Part shown: positions 14,291 to 20,998 of the stretch, piece after piece | How positions within the stretch are numbered: position 1 is the stretch's first letter | How the letters are laid out: every line of letters starts with the position of its first letter | NCBI GenBank assembly: GCA_018434325.1 | Contig: JAHDPO010000004.1 | Coordinates: 248,001-312,000, forward strand | Length of the DNA stretch: 64,000 nucleotides | Direction of reading: 5' to 3' | From: Clostridia bacterium | Lineage (GTDB): Bacteria > Bacillota > Peptococcia > DRI-13 > UBA5745 | Program-made: the position numbers and the translations under genes | The notes under the pieces: model-generated | What the model saw: only the letters and a program-made list of their open reading frames with translations | Databases searched by the model: none | What the model was told of the DNA's origin: nothing

Positions 14291-14321
14291 TCAAAAAATA
14301 ACTGGTCAAGAAAGCCTCGCT

Positions 14322-14358
14322 AATTCCATCTCATTCATTGGGATGGAATTATTTTTTA
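14322..14358 (+). terminator. Rho-independent terminator after degV
   Basis: AATTCCATC (14322-14330) pairs perfectly with GATGGAATT (14342-14350), followed by ATTTTTTA. It separates degV from the opine operon. Confidence 0.85.
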
Positions 14359-14365
14359 CCAATTA

Positions 14366-14437
14366 TTGACTATTATGGATTATCATGGTTAAATAAATTG
14401 ACTAGACAAGTATGGCAATTAAATCTTTAAGTTGTCT
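14366..14437 (+). promoter_or_regulatory. Promoter and putative GntR operator of the opine/TRAP operon
   Basis: TTGACT (14366-14371) and TTAAAT (14389-14394) are 17 bases apart; a second TTGACT is at 14398-14403. Just downstream lie AGACAAGT (14404-14411) and AGTTGTCT (14430-14437), an inverted pair matching at 7 of 8 positions. These half-sites resemble the GTCTAGAC-type sites bound by HutC/UTRA GntR regulators, and such a regulator is encoded in the operon. Assignment of the operator is inference. Confidence 0.5.
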
Positions 14438-14479
14438 GGTTATCTGCAGGGCAAAGGATAAAAACGGGGAGGGGATCAA

Positions 14480-15580
14480 ATGGCAAAATCATATGTTATT
14501 ATCGGCGCCGGCAATGGCGGTCAGTCCCTTGCGGGCGACATGGTTCTCAGAGGCGTTACACCTAAGGCAATCTACGACATAAACGAAACCACTATTGCAA
14601 GCATCCGGGAGCGGGGCGGCATCAAGATGAGCGGTCCCGTTGTGGAAGGCTTTGCGCCTATATCCGGCGCTACCACCAGCCTCGAAGAAGCTGTCCGCTC
14701 CGGCGATGTTTTTTTGGTATGTGTCACATCCAATATATACAACTTGTTTGCAAAGCAGGTGGCGCCCTTTGTTAAACCGGATCAAACTTTCCTGCTGATC
14801 CCCGGCTATGTGGGCAGCTCTATCATGTTTGCCAAGGCATTGCAGGAAAGTGGAGTCAAAGAGCTGCCCCTCATCGGCGAGACAATCAGCTTTCCTTACG
14901 CCACCCGCCTGATTGAGCCGGCTCATGCAGGCATTAAGGCACGCAAGCTGGTTTTACCGATGGCGGCCTTCCCGGCGGCGCGCAATCAAGAACTGCTTGA
15001 TAGCATCAAGCCGGCTATCTTTGAGGCGGCGCTGGGCCAGGATTCGCTGAGCATCGGCTGCAACAACGTCAACCCCACCACCCATATCGTGCCTTATCTA
15101 ATGAATATGGACAAAGTGGAAACACCGCGGCCGTCAGATTTCGACTTCCACGCCTGGGGCTCCGAAACGGTGCAGCGTATTAAACACCAGCTAGACGAGG
15201 AGCGTTGTCAGGTAATGAAGGCGCTGGGTCTCGAAGTGATTACCTACGACGGCTTTAACGAGCTCTGCTACAATGGCAAGCACTATGTGCCGATTCCCCA
15301 GAAGGAGGCTTCCGGCCTGCCCTCTACCGCCAAACAGGCGCCTGACCGCTACATCGACGAGGATGTGCCCATGGGCATTGTCCCCATTGCAGAATTTGCC
15401 CGGCTGCTGGGTATGGAGGTGCCGGTCATTGATACGATGATTCGTCTGGCCAATATTGTCCGCCGGCGCGACTTTTATGCCGAAGGCGCTTCGATGCAGA
15501 AAATGGGTCTTGCAGGCATGGATGCTAAGGAGATCATCGACTACGTGATGACTGGGAAAACCGCTGCAAGGAGGGAGTGA
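14480..15580 (+). CDS. NAD/NADP-dependent octopine/nopaline-type dehydrogenase
   Basis: A 366-residue two-domain dehydrogenase. The N-terminal Rossmann fold has the nucleotide loop GAGNGG at residues 9-14; the C-terminal opine dehydrogenase domain includes GCNNVNPTTHIVPYLMN, whose histidine is the likely proton relay. Such enzymes reversibly join an amino acid and a 2-oxo acid through a secondary amine, or oxidise such opines. It is the first gene of an operon with an argininosuccinate-lyase-like enzyme and a TRAP importer, so a catabolic direction is more likely here. A GGGGAGGGG precedes the ATG. The substrate cannot be read from sequence. Confidence 0.85.
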   Translation: MAKSYVIIGAGNGGQSLAGDMVLRGVTPKAIYDINETTIASIRERGGIKMSGPVVEGFAPISGATTSLEEAVRSGDVFLVCVTSNIYNLFAKQVAPFVKPDQTFLLIPGYVGSSIMFAKALQESGVKELPLIGETISFPYATRLIEPAHAGIKARKLVLPMAAFPAARNQELLDSIKPAIFEAALGQDSLSIGCNNVNPTTHIVPYLMNMDKVETPRPSDFDFHAWGSETVQRIKHQLDEERCQVMKALGLEVITYDGFNELCYNGKHYVPIPQKEASGLPSTAKQAPDRYIDEDVPMGIVPIAEFARLLGMEVPVIDTMIRLANIVRRRDFYAEGASMQKMGLAGMDAKEIIDYVMTGKTAARRE

Positions 15581-15584
15581 GATC

Positions 15585-17084
15585 ATGCGAGAGAGACTGA
15601 AGACCAAACCCAGCGAGACTGTCTGCAAGTACCTCTTTGAGCCCGCTATTCTTGCCGACAGCAAACGCTCTTTTTACAACATGCTGTCATTAAATATTGC
15701 TCATGCCCTCATGCTGAGCAAGCAGGGCATTATCACGCCCGATGAAGCCGGCAAAATCCTTGCAGCCTTTTTGGATCTGGAGAAGGAGGGAAATGCTTCT
15801 TTCAACCTCAACCCCGAATTTGAGGACTATTATTTCAACATTGAAAACTATCTGATCGGCAAAGTTGGCATGGAAGTCGGCGGCAAGCTGCATACAGCCC
15901 GCAGCCGCAACGACCTGCACTCCACAATCAGCCGCATGAATGTGCGCGACCAAATGATTAAGCTGTATCCGCTGGTTTTGAACCTGCGTGACGTGTTGCT
16001 CAGAAAGGCGGATGAGCATAAGGAGACGGTGTTCACCGGCTATACCCACATGCAGCCGGCCCAGCCGATCTCCGTCGCCTTCTATTTCACCGCAGTGGCC
16101 CAGGGCCTTGAGCGCGATTATGCCCGTATGGCGGCGGCCTACGAGCGCCTCAACCAGTGCACGCTGGGCAGCGGCGCCTTTGCCGGTACCAGCTTTCCCA
16201 TCGACCGCCATTATGCCGCCGACCTCCTGGGCTTCAACGGGCCGATGTACAACAATATGGATGCGGTGGCCTCCCGGGACTATCTCCTGGAGTTGCTTAG
16301 CTCTTTCGTGAGCTGCGGCGCTACCATCAACCGCTTTGTCAACGATCTGTATATCTGGGCCACCGATGAGTTCTCCTATATCGAGGTCGACGATTCCCTG
16401 GCAGCCAGCAGCAGCATTATGCCGCAAAAGAAGAATTCGGTGACGCTGGAGCATTGTAAGGCAAAGACCTCACACCTCCTGGGCGCTTATGTCGCTTCCT
16501 TCAGCTGCATGAAGGGCATTCCCTACGGCCACTGCCGCGATATTGCGGGCGAAAGCATCGCCCCTTTCTGGGATGCGGCGACTCAGATGGAAGCGATCCT
16601 CAACCTGCTGGGGGAAACGGTAGAAAAGCTGATGATCAAGACGGACAACATGAAAAACCGGGCCGATCGAAACTTCTGTACAGTCACTGAGCTGGCTGAC
16701 GAGCTGGTCAAAAGGGAGGGGCTTTCCTTCAGAGTCGCCCATCACATCGTAGGCAGCATGGTAGGCGAATGTTTGGATAAAGGTCTGGACGCCTCCCAGA
16801 TGACGGTGGAGATGCTCAATAATGCCGGCAAGGAATTTGCTTCGAAAACCTTTGACTGGAGCCGGCAGGAACTGAGCAGCCTGCTGGATTCGGTCAATTC
16901 GGTGCACAACAAGTACGACTACGGCGCACCCTCGCCGAAGGAGTGCCGGAATATGATCGACCAACTGCTCAAAAAATTGGATGAGGACAGGGCATCTTAC
17001 CAGGAATTGCTGGACGGCTTGCAGGCAGCAGAGCAGAGACTCGACGCCGAAATCCGCAGGTTTGTCACTAAGCCGGAGAGGTAG
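15585..17084 (+). CDS. Argininosuccinate lyase-like enzyme (fumarase/aspartase superfamily)
   Basis: A 499-residue lyase of the fumarase/aspartase fold. All three superfamily regions are visible: HTARSRND at 103-110, GYTHMQPAQP at 152-161, and the flexible catalytic loop SSIMPQKKN at 276-284. Enzymes of this fold cleave a C-N bond to release fumarate from N-succinyl compounds such as argininosuccinate, adenylosuccinate or EDDS. The chain is slightly longer than true ArgH and there is no argG nearby. Its place between an opine dehydrogenase and a TRAP importer suggests a different N-substituted amino acid substrate. It starts 4 bases after the dehydrogenase stop, with GGAGGGAG upstream. Confidence 0.85.
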   Translation: MRERLKTKPSETVCKYLFEPAILADSKRSFYNMLSLNIAHALMLSKQGIITPDEAGKILAAFLDLEKEGNASFNLNPEFEDYYFNIENYLIGKVGMEVGGKLHTARSRNDLHSTISRMNVRDQMIKLYPLVLNLRDVLLRKADEHKETVFTGYTHMQPAQPISVAFYFTAVAQGLERDYARMAAAYERLNQCTLGSGAFAGTSFPIDRHYAADLLGFNGPMYNNMDAVASRDYLLELLSSFVSCGATINRFVNDLYIWATDEFSYIEVDDSLAASSSIMPQKKNSVTLEHCKAKTSHLLGAYVASFSCMKGIPYGHCRDIAGESIAPFWDAATQMEAILNLLGETVEKLMIKTDNMKNRADRNFCTVTELADELVKREGLSFRVAHHIVGSMVGECLDKGLDASQMTVEMLNNAGKEFASKTFDWSRQELSSLLDSVNSVHNKYDYGAPSPKECRNMIDQLLKKLDEDRASYQELLDGLQAAEQRLDAEIRRFVTKPER

Positions 17085-17094
17085 GGCTTTAGCC

Positions 17095-17802
17095 ATGCCA
17101 AAACGCAAAGCAGTCGACGAATCACTTTATAAGCAGATTGCAGACTATATACAGATGAAGATAGACAGCGGAGAGTGGGAGGCAGGCAGCAAAATTCTTT
17201 CCGAAACACAGTTGGCGGCGCAATTTAAGGTGAGCCGGGAGACGGTGCGGCACGCCATATCCCAGCTCCATGCCAAAGGCTTCCTCAACCGCCGGCGGGG
17301 CGCCGGAACTTTTGTCGCAATGCCGACTTATAAATGGGACTATCTCAAAATGTTTTTTCCCGCCGAGGCCGGTACCCACCACAGCTTGCTTGAGATTAAA
17401 ATTATACACGCCTCGGAAAGCCTGGCTCAGACCCTTGAAGTGCCACCGAAAAGCGAAGTATACGAGATTTCGCGGCTTCGTTATCTGTTCGACGAGCGCC
17501 GCATCCCAACGATTCTCGAGAAAGCCTACTTTGCGAAGAGCCTGAATGTTCAAATGGAACTGATTGACTTCAACAAGCGCCTGTACGATTTCCTCGAAGC
17601 TAACGAGGGAATCAAGCTCACCAGATTTAAGAACCTGATCGAACCGGCGCTGCTGACGCCAACAGAGGCGGGCTGCCTTAAGTGCAGCCAAAACAGGCCT
17701 GTGCTGCTCCTATCCCGTATCGGATACAGCGGCGACCGGCCCATCATTCTCACCAAAAGCATCGTCAATTCAGACAGGCTGAAATTGCAAATCGAGCTGT
17801 AA
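17095..17802 (+). CDS. GntR family transcriptional regulator with UTRA domain
   Basis: A 235-residue regulator. The winged helix-turn-helix occupies about residues 8-75 (LSETQLAAQFKVSRETVRHA), followed by a UTRA ligand-binding domain (from about 95 onward, EISRLRYLFDERRIPTILEKAYF). This is the HutC/FarR subgroup, whose members usually bind a substrate or intermediate of the pathway they control. It lies between the enzyme and transporter genes of the operon, so it probably senses the imported compound. The ATG at 17095 starts 10 bases after the lyase stop. A candidate operator lies in front of the operon. Confidence 0.9.
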   Translation: MPKRKAVDESLYKQIADYIQMKIDSGEWEAGSKILSETQLAAQFKVSRETVRHAISQLHAKGFLNRRRGAGTFVAMPTYKWDYLKMFFPAEAGTHHSLLEIKIIHASESLAQTLEVPPKSEVYEISRLRYLFDERRIPTILEKAYFAKSLNVQMELIDFNKRLYDFLEANEGIKLTRFKNLIEPALLTPTEAGCLKCSQNRPVLLLSRIGYSGDRPIILTKSIVNSDRLKLQIEL

Positions 17803-17883
17803 GGCGCCTGCCTGATGCGGTGATTTTGAATGGCACCCTAACCACTAAGGAATAAGAGCACTAATAATGAGGAGGGATCTACC

Positions 17884-18924
17884 ATGAAAAAATGCTTATC
17901 CCTATGTCTGGCGGTTATCCTGGCTTTGGCGGTATTTTCCGGCTGCACATCATCTCCGGCTCCTGCAACTTCTCCGACCACCGCCACTTCCGCCGGCGCC
18001 GGAACGCCTACTGAGGCCAAAGCCCCTGAGCGTCCTCTTGCCCGCCTGCTCCTCGGAACTTCCAGCGTCGGCGGCACCTACTACGTCTGGGGCGCAGGTT
18101 GGTCGAAAATCATGAATGAAAAGGTCGACAATGTCGATTGCTCAGTCGAAGTCACCGGCGGTCCGAACACCAATATGCAGCTGATTCAGCAGGATGAGAT
18201 GGAGCTCGGCTTTGTTACCACCTGGCTCGGCGGTGAAGGCTGGAGCGGCACCGGCTGGACCGAAGGCAAGAAGTATGACAAAATGCGAGGCATGTTTGCC
18301 ACCTACTACAGCGTCATGTACATCTACTCACTTAAAGACAGCGGCATCGAGTCGGTCTACGATTTTGAAGGCAAGAATATTGCTGTGGGCTCTCCCGGCG
18401 CCACCAGCGATCTGGCAGGACGGGCTCTTCTGGAAATCCTCGGCATCAAAGTAAAGAGTGTTACAAGCCTGCCTACGGATGGCCAGCTCAGCGCCCTCAA
18501 GGACGGCACCATTGATGCCTGCTTCTCCATCACCGGCATCCCCGGGCCTTTTATGCTGGAGCTTGAGACCACCCACGACGTACAGCATATCGGACTCAGC
18601 GACGCGGATTTCGATAAAATTTTAGCGGCGCAACCCTACTGGTCAAGGAATGTCATTCCCGCCAATACCTTTAAAAACCAGCCGGAAGATGTTCCGGTCT
18701 GTGCTTTCTGGAATATGATGGTAGGCCATAAAGATCTGGATGACGATCTGGTTTACGACCTGGTTAAGACCACATTCGAACAGAACGAAGCGTTGATCGC
18801 TGTGGACCCGACTGCGGCGATGACCGTGCCCGAAGCGGTCACCAACTGCGTGATTCCGCTGCATCCCGGCGCACTGCGCTACTACGAGGAAATAGGCGTC
18901 ACCGTTCCTGATTCACTCAAGTAA
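17884..18924 (+). CDS. TAXI family TRAP transporter solute-binding lipoprotein
   Basis: A 346-residue extracytoplasmic binding protein. A lipoprotein signal peptide ends in VFSGC (Cys21), followed by a low-complexity Ala/Thr/Pro linker to about residue 50. The TAXI signature region LLLGTSSVGGTYYVWGAGWSKI follows. TAXI proteins capture organic acids or amino acids such as glutamate for sodium-driven TRAP import. AGGAGGG stands before the ATG. With the adjacent permease it forms a complete TRAP system. The ligand is presumably what the opine dehydrogenase and lyase act on. Confidence 0.92.
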   Translation: MKKCLSLCLAVILALAVFSGCTSSPAPATSPTTATSAGAGTPTEAKAPERPLARLLLGTSSVGGTYYVWGAGWSKIMNEKVDNVDCSVEVTGGPNTNMQLIQQDEMELGFVTTWLGGEGWSGTGWTEGKKYDKMRGMFATYYSVMYIYSLKDSGIESVYDFEGKNIAVGSPGATSDLAGRALLEILGIKVKSVTSLPTDGQLSALKDGTIDACFSITGIPGPFMLELETTHDVQHIGLSDADFDKILAAQPYWSRNVIPANTFKNQPEDVPVCAFWNMMVGHKDLDDDLVYDLVKTTFEQNEALIAVDPTAAMTVPEAVTNCVIPLHPGALRYYEEIGVTVPDSLK

Positions 18925-18951
18925 CCTATTTTTTTGTAATAGGGGGTACAC

Positions 18952-20904
18952 ATGTTATTCAAAAAAGCAAATAAAGTCCTTGAGGATATTAATGTAGAGG
19001 AACTCGATCAGGAATCTTCTGCAAAACGGGAACTTTCAAGCGTCTACAAGAAGATTTTCTTCACCTTTGCCGTCCTCACCACTATTGCCCATATTTACTT
19101 CCTTGCTGTGCAGCCTGTAACGGGGTATTTCCTGTTTGCACTGCATGTAGGCACCGGTTATTCCCTGCTTTTGGCTTATTACCCGCCTTTTAAAAAGAGC
19201 AGTAAGGACAAAGTTCCCGTTTACGATCTGGTTCTCATTGCCCTGATGGTTTTTGCTGCGTCCCACATGATCCGTGAGATGAACACCATTGTTTACCGCA
19301 TCGGCATTTCACCGACTACGATGGATATGCTCGTCAGCATCATCGTTGTGCTCATCACGCTGGAGTGTACTAGGCGCACCTGCGGCAACATCCTGCCTGT
19401 TATTGCGATTGTTTTCTTGCTATACGGCCGCTATGGCCACCTGCTGCCGGGAATGCTGGGCCATAGGGAATATTCCTGGTCTAAGGTGCTCTCCTACATG
19501 ATCGGCATGGACGCCATCTTCGGTACCTCGATGAACGCATCCGCAAGGATGGTCTTCCTGTTCATCGTCTTCGGCGCATTCCTTGCGGCCTCAGGGTCCG
19601 GGAAGTTCTTCATCGACCTGTCGCTGAGTGTAGCGGGACACGCCCGGGGCGGCCCCGCCAAGGTTGCGGTCCTTTCCAGCGCCCTCTTTGGAACGGTATC
19701 GGGCAACTCTGTAGCGAATGTGGTAACAACCGGCTCGATGACCATCCCAATGATGAAGTCGATTGGCTACAAAAACCACTTTGCAGGCGCAGTTGAGGCG
19801 ACGGCCTCTACAGGCGGCCAGATCATGCCGCCGATCATGGGTTCGGCAGCGTTCATCATGGCGTCGCTCATCGGTACGCCCTACAGCCGCATTGTCACCG
19901 CCGCCGTCATTCCTGCGCTTCTCTATTTCTACACGGTTTTCCTGATGGTGGATCTGGAAGCGATCAAGCACAACCTGCGGGGGATGGAGCGGGCAAATCT
20001 GCCCTCCTTCAAGAAAATTATGCTGACACAGGGCCATCTGATCCTGCCGCTGGTCGTGCTGATCCTCGTGCTGACCGTGCTTGGCTGGAGCACCATCCGT
20101 TCCGCTTTGGTGGGCATCATCACCTGCATCGTGGTTTCCTGGGTGCACAAGAATACGCGTATGGGACCTAAAACCATTCTCAAAGCCTGCGGCGACGGCG
20201 CCCTATCTGCCACCAGCGTCATTGCGGCATGCGGAACTGCCGGCATCGTGGTGGGCGTGCTCAACGTCACCGGCACAGGACTGAAATTCGCCAGCGCCAT
20301 CGTCCAACTGGCGGGAGGCCGCTTGTGGCTGGCATTGGTGCTGACAATGGTTGCCAGCATCCTGCTGGGCATGGGTCTTCCCACGACAGCCTCTTACCTG
20401 ATTTGTGCGGCAGTGGCCGCACCCGCCCTGGTCCAATTGGGGCTTACTCCACTGCAGGCTCACATGTTCGTTTTCTACTTCGCTTGCATCTCGGCAATCA
20501 CCCCGCCGGTTGCCTTGGCGGCTTATGCCGGCGCCGGCATTGCAAAGGCAAGGCCTATGCAGGTAGCGGTGACAGCGTGCAAGGTCGGTATCTCCGCTTT
20601 TGTTATCCCCTATATGTTCTGCTATGGGCCTGCTCTTCTTTGGGAAGGTTCGGGGACCGTGATCATGACCACGCTGGTCACCGCAATCATTGGCGCCACC
20701 TTCCTATCTTTTGGGATACAGCAGCAAGCCATGCACATTCGGCTGAACAGATTCGAAAGCCTCGTCACCACATTTGGTTCGCTGCTTCTGATCAAACCCG
20801 GATTGCAGACAGATATTATCGGTATTTGTATCTGTGGTGTGATCTGTACAATTGCCGCCATCAGGCATAGAAAGAATCAGTCAAAGATGACACCGGTGGC
20901 GTAA
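18952..20904 (+). CDS. TRAP transporter permease, fused DctQ/DctM type (TAXI-associated)
   Basis: A 650-residue polytopic membrane protein of the fused 4TM/12TM TRAP permease family that works with TAXI binding proteins. Conserved stretches include SGKFFIDLSLSVAGHARGGPAKVAV, GNSVANVVTTGSMTIPMMK, TASTGGQIMPPIMGSAAF, and later GMGLPTTASYL and ISAITPPVALAAYAGAGIA, the substrate/sodium sites of the DctM half. It begins 27 bases after the binding-protein gene, with GGGGG before the ATG, and ends the operon. Transport is expected to be driven by a sodium gradient. Confidence 0.92.
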   Translation: MLFKKANKVLEDINVEELDQESSAKRELSSVYKKIFFTFAVLTTIAHIYFLAVQPVTGYFLFALHVGTGYSLLLAYYPPFKKSSKDKVPVYDLVLIALMVFAASHMIREMNTIVYRIGISPTTMDMLVSIIVVLITLECTRRTCGNILPVIAIVFLLYGRYGHLLPGMLGHREYSWSKVLSYMIGMDAIFGTSMNASARMVFLFIVFGAFLAASGSGKFFIDLSLSVAGHARGGPAKVAVLSSALFGTVSGNSVANVVTTGSMTIPMMKSIGYKNHFAGAVEATASTGGQIMPPIMGSAAFIMASLIGTPYSRIVTAAVIPALLYFYTVFLMVDLEAIKHNLRGMERANLPSFKKIMLTQGHLILPLVVLILVLTVLGWSTIRSALVGIITCIVVSWVHKNTRMGPKTILKACGDGALSATSVIAACGTAGIVVGVLNVTGTGLKFASAIVQLAGGRLWLALVLTMVASILLGMGLPTTASYLICAAVAAPALVQLGLTPLQAHMFVFYFACISAITPPVALAAYAGAGIAKARPMQVAVTACKVGISAFVIPYMFCYGPALLWEGSGTVIMTTLVTAIIGATFLSFGIQQQAMHIRLNRFESLVTTFGSLLLIKPGLQTDIIGICICGVICTIAAIRHRKNQSKMTPVA

Positions 20905-20959
20905 ACATTAAGACTTAGAAATATAACGAGAAACGGAAAAGATCACCGAAAAGACCAAA

Positions 20960-20998
20960 GAAAATTTCGCCTTATCACTGGGGTGAAATTTTCTTTTT
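20960..20998 (+). terminator. Terminator of the opine/TRAP operon
   Basis: GAAAATTTCGCC (20960-20971) pairs with GGTGAAATTTTC (20982-20993; one G-U), followed by TTTTT. It lies 55 bases after the permease stop. Confidence 0.85.

Follow-up and report, generated by a model that had tools for sequence, protein, structure and literature searches.

Which compound would a bacterium take up and degrade with an operon that joins an opine-type dehydrogenase, a lyase of the argininosuccinate-lyase fold and a TAXI-TRAP importer? To explore this question, we analyzed a locus at positions 14366 to 20998 of a 64,000-nt stretch from a Clostridia bacterium (assembly GCA_018434325.1, contig JAHDPO010000004.1), here called the window. 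In the open reading frame (ORF) listing of the window, five co-oriented and tightly packed genes lie on the + strand in the order opine-type dehydrogenase (ODH), lyase, GntR regulator, TAXI solute-binding protein and TRAP permease (ODH-lyase-GntR-TAXI-TRAP). A first-pass annotation had described five genes of one orientation between a promoter and a terminator, and the ORFs, the domains and two terminator hairpins agree with it. Gene content, operon boundaries and recurrence in other genomes are established by computation, as are the position of the lyase outside ArgH (argininosuccinate lyase), its intact catalytic core and altered amine-side pocket, and a TAXI pocket unlike that of glutamate binders. 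All the enzyme families are known already; their combination and the substrate are undescribed in the open-licence literature, in which no published description of an ODH-lyase-TRAP operon was found. We consider it probable that the operon imports a substituted aspartate or succinate and releases fumarate from it. There is about an even chance that it serves to take up and break down an N-substituted aspartate. This would most likely be of the opine or aminopolycarboxylate type, an N-(1-carboxyalkyl)-aspartate, the N-carboxyalkyl form being preferred because of the ODH.

The five genes recur together. A scan of 84,980 genomes, in which the query was limited to conserved stretches of the C-terminal half of the lyase, returned 15 loci, nine of them with all five genes and a tenth (L067) that ends at a contig end. 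The complete sets are in Siminovitchia fordii, Halalkalibacter oceani, Bacillus sp. MRMR6, Oceanobacillus oncorhynchi, Neobacillus niacini, Metabacillus arenae, Lysinibacillus composti, a Bacillus metagenome-assembled genome (MAG) and a congener Clostridia MAG. Two further full sets were found in genome samples, one from the same phylum (G314) and one from the class Bacilli (G608), giving a total of 12 including the window genome (the congener, one other phylum member, eight Bacillaceae and one more member of the Bacilli). The order is ODH-lyase-GntR-TAXI-TRAP in the window and the congener, GntR-lyase-TAXI-TRAP-ODH in most Bacillaceae, and lyase-GntR-TAXI-TRAP-ODH in S. fordii, G314 and G608. 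Identity to the window proteins outside the genus is 51-59% for TAXI, 51-55% for TRAP, 43-47% for the lyase, ~34-41% for GntR and 30-47% for the ODH; the GntR protein of the congener locus (L034) is 79% identical. Because the content is kept while the order changes, the five genes probably form a functional unit, and because the same genes recur, the set is not a chance neighborhood. Recurrence elsewhere had been set as a check by the first-pass annotation, and the genes were indeed found together in both Clostridia-like and Bacillaceae genomes.

The lyase clade is rare, being present in 4 of 398 genomes of the phylum sample, 1 of 274 genomes from the class to which Mesosutterella belongs and 2 of 398 Bacilli genomes (E 1e-90 or better, full-length signature). 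In the reverse test, the TAXI protein as a query gave matches in only 2 of 378 Bacilli genomes (G431 and G608), precisely the two lyase carriers of the Bacilli sample. In the phylum sample, TAXI proteins of at least 58% identity were found only in the window genome and G314, both with the lyase, and the next tier stands at 35-42%. Neither the lyase nor the ODH was seen nearby in the five inspected loci of this second tier; by eye, two of these loci carry D-glutamate-cyclase-like and M24 genes, and two carry fumarase-beta and HdrB-like genes. The TAXI search of plasmids returned zero matches.

The lyase gene (15585..17084, + strand, 499 aa) starts 4 nt past the ODH end, and its product, with the domains Lyase_1 (PF00206, 157.6 bits) and ASL_C2 (PF14698, 60.9 bits), is a predicted fumarate-releasing C-N lyase of the argininosuccinate-lyase fold. 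The NCBIfam argH equivalog model (TIGR00838) scores it at 399.6 against a cut-off of 279.5, so the protein will be misnamed argH; the plasmid relatives H1-H8, H13-H16 and H18-H20 are named argH in public records, a systematic misannotation. In a tree of 58 sequences, 20 argininosuccinate lyases (ArgH), including the host's own, are split from the window lyase, the ethylenediaminedisuccinate (EDDS) lyase and their relatives with a branch support of 100. The lyase is thus placed outside ArgH; the first-pass annotation had proposed such a phylogeny, in which grouping inside true ArgH clades would have spoken against its reading. Its complete SSxMPQKxN loop was likewise recovered, reading SSIMPQKKN. 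On contig C10 of the host genome (G000, 3.83 Mb) lies a full argJ-B-D-F-G-H operon with another ArgH, which would make the window lyase unnecessary for arginine synthesis. The argG gene, whose absence beside the lyase had also been pointed out, lies in this C10 operon. The host has three Lyase_1 genes, namely the C10 ArgH, the window lyase and one on contig C13 that is taken to be PurB. An ArgH paralog for arginine synthesis was rejected in view of the tree, the residues and the separate arg operon.

The active site shows which side of the substrate has changed. In window numbering, R106, R108, N109, T154, H155, S276, S277, K282, N284 and E289 are invariant in both ArgH and the five-gene lyases. 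Positions 286, 316, 317, 318 and 321 are Asp, Tyr, Asn, Lys and Gln in 28 of 28 ArgH sequences; in 13 of 13 five-gene lyases the first four are Val/Ile, His, Cys/Ser and Arg, and the fifth is never Gln (V286, H316, C317, R318 and A321 in the window lyase). These lyases also have His290 where ArgH has Leu. The subfamily motif reads KKN[PS][VI]TLEH ... H-[CS]-R-D. Close to its substrate (4-6 A), EDDS lyase has, among other residues, R112, N113, Q159, N288, D290 and Y320 (PMC12363623), which map to R108, N109, H155, N284, V286 and H316 of the window lyase. By this pattern of core and pocket residues, the succinyl-side machinery is intact and the amine side is altered in a conserved way.

The EDDS lyase of Chelativorans sp. 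BNC1 (PDB 6g3d-6g3i, 6rx8) resembles the window lyase in its fold, long C-terminal helix, catalytic loop and position on the non-ArgH side of the tree. It is, however, only ~29% identical, and its Q159, D290 and Y320 are replaced by His155, Val286 and His316 (6rx8 is a D290M/Y320M variant, and the wild-type letters are from PMC12363623). In the AlphaFold2 model of the lyase (pLDDT 86), EDDS lyase is the best Foldseek match (1e-30). It is tied with ASL/delta-crystallin by VIA-align (Z 39-41), but its alignment covers more residues of the model (464-465 at 1.9-2.0 A) and takes in the long C-terminal helix. In the tree it forms a long branch and is no supported sister of the window lyase. ArgH shares with the window lyase the fold, the catalytic Ser/His/Glu core and the NCBIfam score, but the window lyase belongs to a separate clade and has other residues in place of all five of the ArgH-invariant D, Y, N, K and Q.

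The ODH gene (14480..15580, + strand) encodes a 366-aa protein, a predicted NAD(P)-dependent dehydrogenase of the octopine/nopaline/CENDH family, with Octopine_DH (PF02317) at 90.7 bits against a cut-off of 30. Residues 2-351 align with CENDH (1bg6) at E 2.8e-40, so that the alignment is full-length, although identity is low. The nucleotide motif GAGNGG (GxGNGG) is present, and H202 and E294-D295 are invariant in nine sequences and aligned with 1bg6. The conserved His and Asp of opine dehydrogenases, which CENDH and the octopine and nopaline dehydrogenases have in common with the window ODH, are catalytic. What sets the window ODH apart from those enzymes is its coupling to TAXI-TRAP import and to a lyase. 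The five-gene ODHs fall into two well-supported groups that are ~32% identical to each other; a single ODH clade is not rejected by the approximately unbiased (AU) test (p-AU 0.28), and the operon may have acquired its ODH in one event or in two. ODH relatives also form minimal transporter + ODH units on Paenarthrobacter and Cytobacillus plasmids, which suit a stand-alone catabolic role for the ODH family. At L097, L098 and L099, ODH relatives lie beside a protein that by eye looks cobalamin-binding.

The importer consists of a TAXI-type TRAP solute-binding lipoprotein (17884..18924, + strand, 346 aa; TRAP_TAXI TIGR02122, 244.1 bits against a cut-off of 84.35; lipobox-like LAVFSGC) and a fused TRAP permease (18952..20904, + strand, 650 aa; TRAP_fused TIGR02123, 680.7 bits against 320.65). 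The glutamate TAXI-TRAP proteins VcGluP and TtGluBP share the family and the fold with the window TAXI, and the ligand position Tyr45 of VcGluP is kept as Y66. Four other pocket positions differ, with Ser75, Gln93, Glu125 and Tyr200 of VcGluP corresponding to P94, T112, S143 and S215. Q93 and Y45 of VcGluP are key glutamate determinants (PMC11574862). Judged by its pocket residues, the window protein does not qualify as a glutamate TAXI of the known kind, and a glutamate importer was rejected (e.g. Q93 is T112 in all five-gene TAXIs). P94, T112 and S143 are invariant across the five-gene TAXIs, and to judge from these residues the set probably shares one ligand class. At L137 and L139, TAXI-TRAP genes with the P94/T112 pocket letters adjoin HdrB/TfrB-like and fumarase-beta-like genes, a hint at C4-dicarboxylates as ligands of this TAXI branch.

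We then consider the genes beside relatives of the lyase. In Pelosinus (L071) a relative stands, by eye, beside a Dcu-type anaerobic C4-dicarboxylate transporter. In G314 (L076), genes for malic enzyme and for Fe-S fumarase (alpha and beta) were seen by eye on the strand of the five-gene set, with one opposite-strand ORF between. From these Dcu, fumarase and malic enzyme neighbors we infer fumarate as the lyase product. On the Cereibacter and Agrobacterium plasmids, a lyase relative occurs with an asparaginase, an amino-acid ABC importer, an MmgE/PrpD gene and a deglycase-like gene; the Cereibacter MmgE/PrpD is nearest in the PDB to iminodisuccinate epimerase (2hp3, 9.9e-40), and the Agrobacterium plasmid adds fructoselysine-6-kinase-like (PfkB/FrlD) and 3-epimerase-like (FrlC) genes. 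In G608 (L087, L107), the five-gene set is contiguous with Amadori (frl/fra-like) genes on the same strand, namely a fructoselysine-deglycase-like (FrlB), a 3-epimerase-like (FrlC) and two fructoselysine-6-kinase-like (FrlD) genes, and with a secreted type II asparaginase. An asparaginase also lies a few genes from a relative in Cupriavidus, together with a TTT binding protein, and in G053 and G381 a relative is accompanied by a YfcC-like permease and a RutB/biuret-hydrolase-like protein. The common theme is an amidase or epimerase that would act on an N-substituted asparagine or aspartate, followed by a lyase able to release fumarate. The first-pass reading of import followed by degradation is accordingly strengthened in one part, that of C-N elimination to fumarate, which these neighbors back.

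Several further arrangements were seen around the clade. A single region of Mesosutterella porci (L072/L105) holds two clade lyases together with two aspartase/fumarase-like genes and a Dcu C4-dicarboxylate transporter, and may serve fumarate respiration on N-substituted aspartates. In G608 two lyases flank a fructoselysine 3-epimerase-like gene. The asparaginase-GntR-ABC-MmgE/PrpD-lyase-SIS deglycase-like cluster of Cereibacter sphaeroides pRSKD131A (L110) and Agrobacterium sp. 33MFTa1.1 (L113) resembles one pathway for both fructosyl-asparagine and N-substituted aspartates.

On the reading of the operon as a route for N-substituted aspartates, we infer the substrate class, the direction, the role of the ODH, the repression and the order of steps as follows. 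TAXI-TRAP would import the N-substituted aspartate, and Ser277 in the SSIMPQKKN loop of the lyase would take the beta-proton and eliminate the substituted nitrogen, giving fumarate and the other amino acid. The ODH would oxidize a secondary amine, either that of the imported compound itself or that of a homologue or stereoisomer beyond the reach of the lyase, to an imine whose hydrolysis would give a 2-oxo acid and an amino acid. The fumarate would enter central metabolism via fumarase. Several points weigh against this proposal. The neighbors hinting at fumarate and at Asn/Asp derivatives belong to relatives that are 38-47% identical, whose substrates may differ, and asparaginase, epimerase and fumarase are absent from the window operon. 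A lyase and an ODH acting on one compound would be redundant. The two ODH groups may, to judge from their divergence, have differing substrate specificities, and the true substrate of the ODH might be a hydroxy acid or a different 2-oxo acid/amine pair. The bond that the lyase cleaves might also be C-S or C-O.

A rival reading is the breakdown of S-(2-succino) thiol adducts, with a 2SL-type lyase releasing fumarate from an S-succinylated thiol. 2SL belongs to lyase class I and yields fumarate from N-acetyl-S-(2-succino)cysteine, and the catalytic loop found here would serve; characterized 2SL genes, however, lie in yxe loci with an acetylase and a deacetylase (PMC9706529), neither of which was found near any of the 12 five-gene sets. 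The 2SL set is here told apart by its locus description. As the 2SL pathway also has no place for ODH chemistry, this explanation is unlikely. The Amadori genes and asparaginase contiguous with the set in G608, and the pairing of lyase relatives with asparaginase and SIS deglycase-like genes on the Cereibacter and Agrobacterium plasmids (the latter also with FrlD- and FrlC-like genes), would instead suit catabolism of fructosyl-aspartate, in which the lyase takes fumarate off N-(1-deoxyfructosyl)-aspartate and leaves fructosamine. No ODH member is known to act on sugars, which counts against it. In the fructose-asparagine (fra) pathway of Salmonella, FraD turns fructose-asparagine into 6-P-fructose-aspartate and FraB cleaves it (PMC4941530). 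The SIS deglycase (FraB), the kinase (FraD) and the asparaginase are all absent near the window operon and the nine Bacillaceae loci; such genes stand beside the set only in G608, and fructosyl-aspartate seems quite an unlikely substrate.

The enzymes might also run in reverse, the lyase joining fumarate with an amine and the ODH starting from a 2-oxo acid, for biosynthesis of an aminopolycarboxylate or opine as a metallophore or osmolyte. Opine dehydrogenases of the ODH fold can indeed run reductively, which counts for such a role. EDDS lyase readily adds amines to fumarate in vitro (PMC12363623). The transport genes nevertheless encode an importer dependent on a solute-binding protein, the operon lacks exporter, SbnA/SbnB-like and metallophore genes, and GntR together with the amidase, asparaginase or Dcu neighbors of relatives fits uptake and breakdown over biosynthesis, which we regard as very doubtful. 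Finally, the score above the argH cut-off would be expected of a second arginine-pathway ArgH with unrelated neighbors, but the host's own ArgH in the C10 operon, the tree support of 100, the five replaced arginine-side residues and the lack of an adjacent argG make this hardly credible.

The UTRA-domain GntR regulator (17095..17802, + strand) contains UTRA (PF07702, 90.7 bits) and GntR (PF00392, 69.4 bits); its ORF opens at 16981 and the likely start is the ATG at 17095. Upstream of the ODH gene, a sigma-70-like promoter (14366..14394, + strand; TTGACT-17-TTAAAT) was read from the sequence and is below the promoter-scan threshold; the start at 14366 given by the first-pass annotation is its -35-like TTGACT, followed by a 17-nt spacer and TTAAAT. 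A putative GntR operator (14398..14439, + strand) was found by sequence search and congener alignment. It comprises the palindrome TTGACTAGACAAG (14398-14410) and a second half-site TTGTCTGG (14432-14439), and has an exact match at one site only within the window. In the alignment with the congener locus (L034), the promoter stretch and the palindrome are identical and the half-site is kept, with a diverged spacer between palindrome and half-site. This conservation fits a GntR operator overlapping the transcription start, and the UTRA-GntR protein, seated on the palindrome that directly follows the -10 box, would repress the operon until it binds the substrate or a product. The sequence TGTAC[AG][GTA]ACAT occurs upstream of most Bacillaceae sets, G314 and G608 (13 in 4,420 bp versus 5 in 344,604 bp elsewhere). 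An operator common with the Bacillaceae was rejected, as the window promoter is without TGTACnnACAT, and in the window and the congener another palindrome takes the corresponding position.

The operon is bounded by two intrinsic terminators on the + strand. The upstream one, belonging to a DegV gene, spans 14321..14357 (13-bp stem and T-run; -17 kcal/mol, z -5.88), and its hairpin (14321-14351) sets the DegV gene apart from the operon. The other lies 3' of the TRAP permease (20957..20996; 18-bp hairpin into a T-tract; -19.9 kcal/mol, z -4.51). In the shuffle test, no shuffled sequence folds as well as these hairpins (z -5.9 and -4.5).

Other lyases were also encountered. The congener genome (G004, contig C22; L036 5059-9176) has a second lyase, 42% identical, with enolase-superfamily, Asp/Glu-racemase-like and RidA-like genes, a nitrilase-like fragment and an oligopeptide ABC importer as neighbors. 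Another subfamily, 31-36% identical with a tree support of 99, occurs in Bacilli (L088-L095), where its neighbors at several loci are an Fbp-like ABC importer, a BadF-type kinase and either a PIG-L deacetylase or a large secreted PIG-L-like protein; this BadF/PIG-L subfamily apparently belongs to an unrelated, undescribed pathway. On a Rhodobacter capsulatus plasmid (L116), a lyase relative adjoins SIS and BadF genes.

Two described systems come near to the proposed route. Iminodisuccinate degradation in Agrobacterium BY6 is ascribed to an MmgE/PrpD epimerase and a C-N lyase (Cokesa 2004, as cited in PMC7347537). The chemistry proposed there is similar, and the Agrobacterium and Cereibacter relatives of the window lyase adjoin MmgE/PrpD genes; the window operon, however, lacks the epimerase. 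The succinamopine catabolism region of pTiEU6, which concerns an N-substituted Asn opine, has odh, asparaginase and mmgE genes, but it has opine-oxidase-type genes and ABC importers, and an ASL-fold lyase is not mentioned (PMC6733357).

Taken more broadly, it is possible, though still a tentative proposal, that the operon represents an undescribed Bacillota pathway for aspartate-based opines or aminopolycarboxylates, fed by TAXI-TRAP, in which a new C-N lyase subfamily and an ODH attack the secondary amine from two sides. The wider clade would then supply a constant "aspartate-side" module, combined with other enzymes (deglycase, epimerase, amidase or ODH) that fit the N-substituent. Biocatalysts for N-substituted aspartates are wanted, and the lyase clade is a natural source of enzymes whose amine pocket differs. 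If the proposal is true, it would give a physiological pathway to an EDDS-lyase-like branch to which public models attach the name argH. It would also assign a class of ligands to one group of TAXI transporters, few TAXI ligands being known. It would further mean that free-living Bacillota eat aspartate-derived opines or aminopolycarboxylates.

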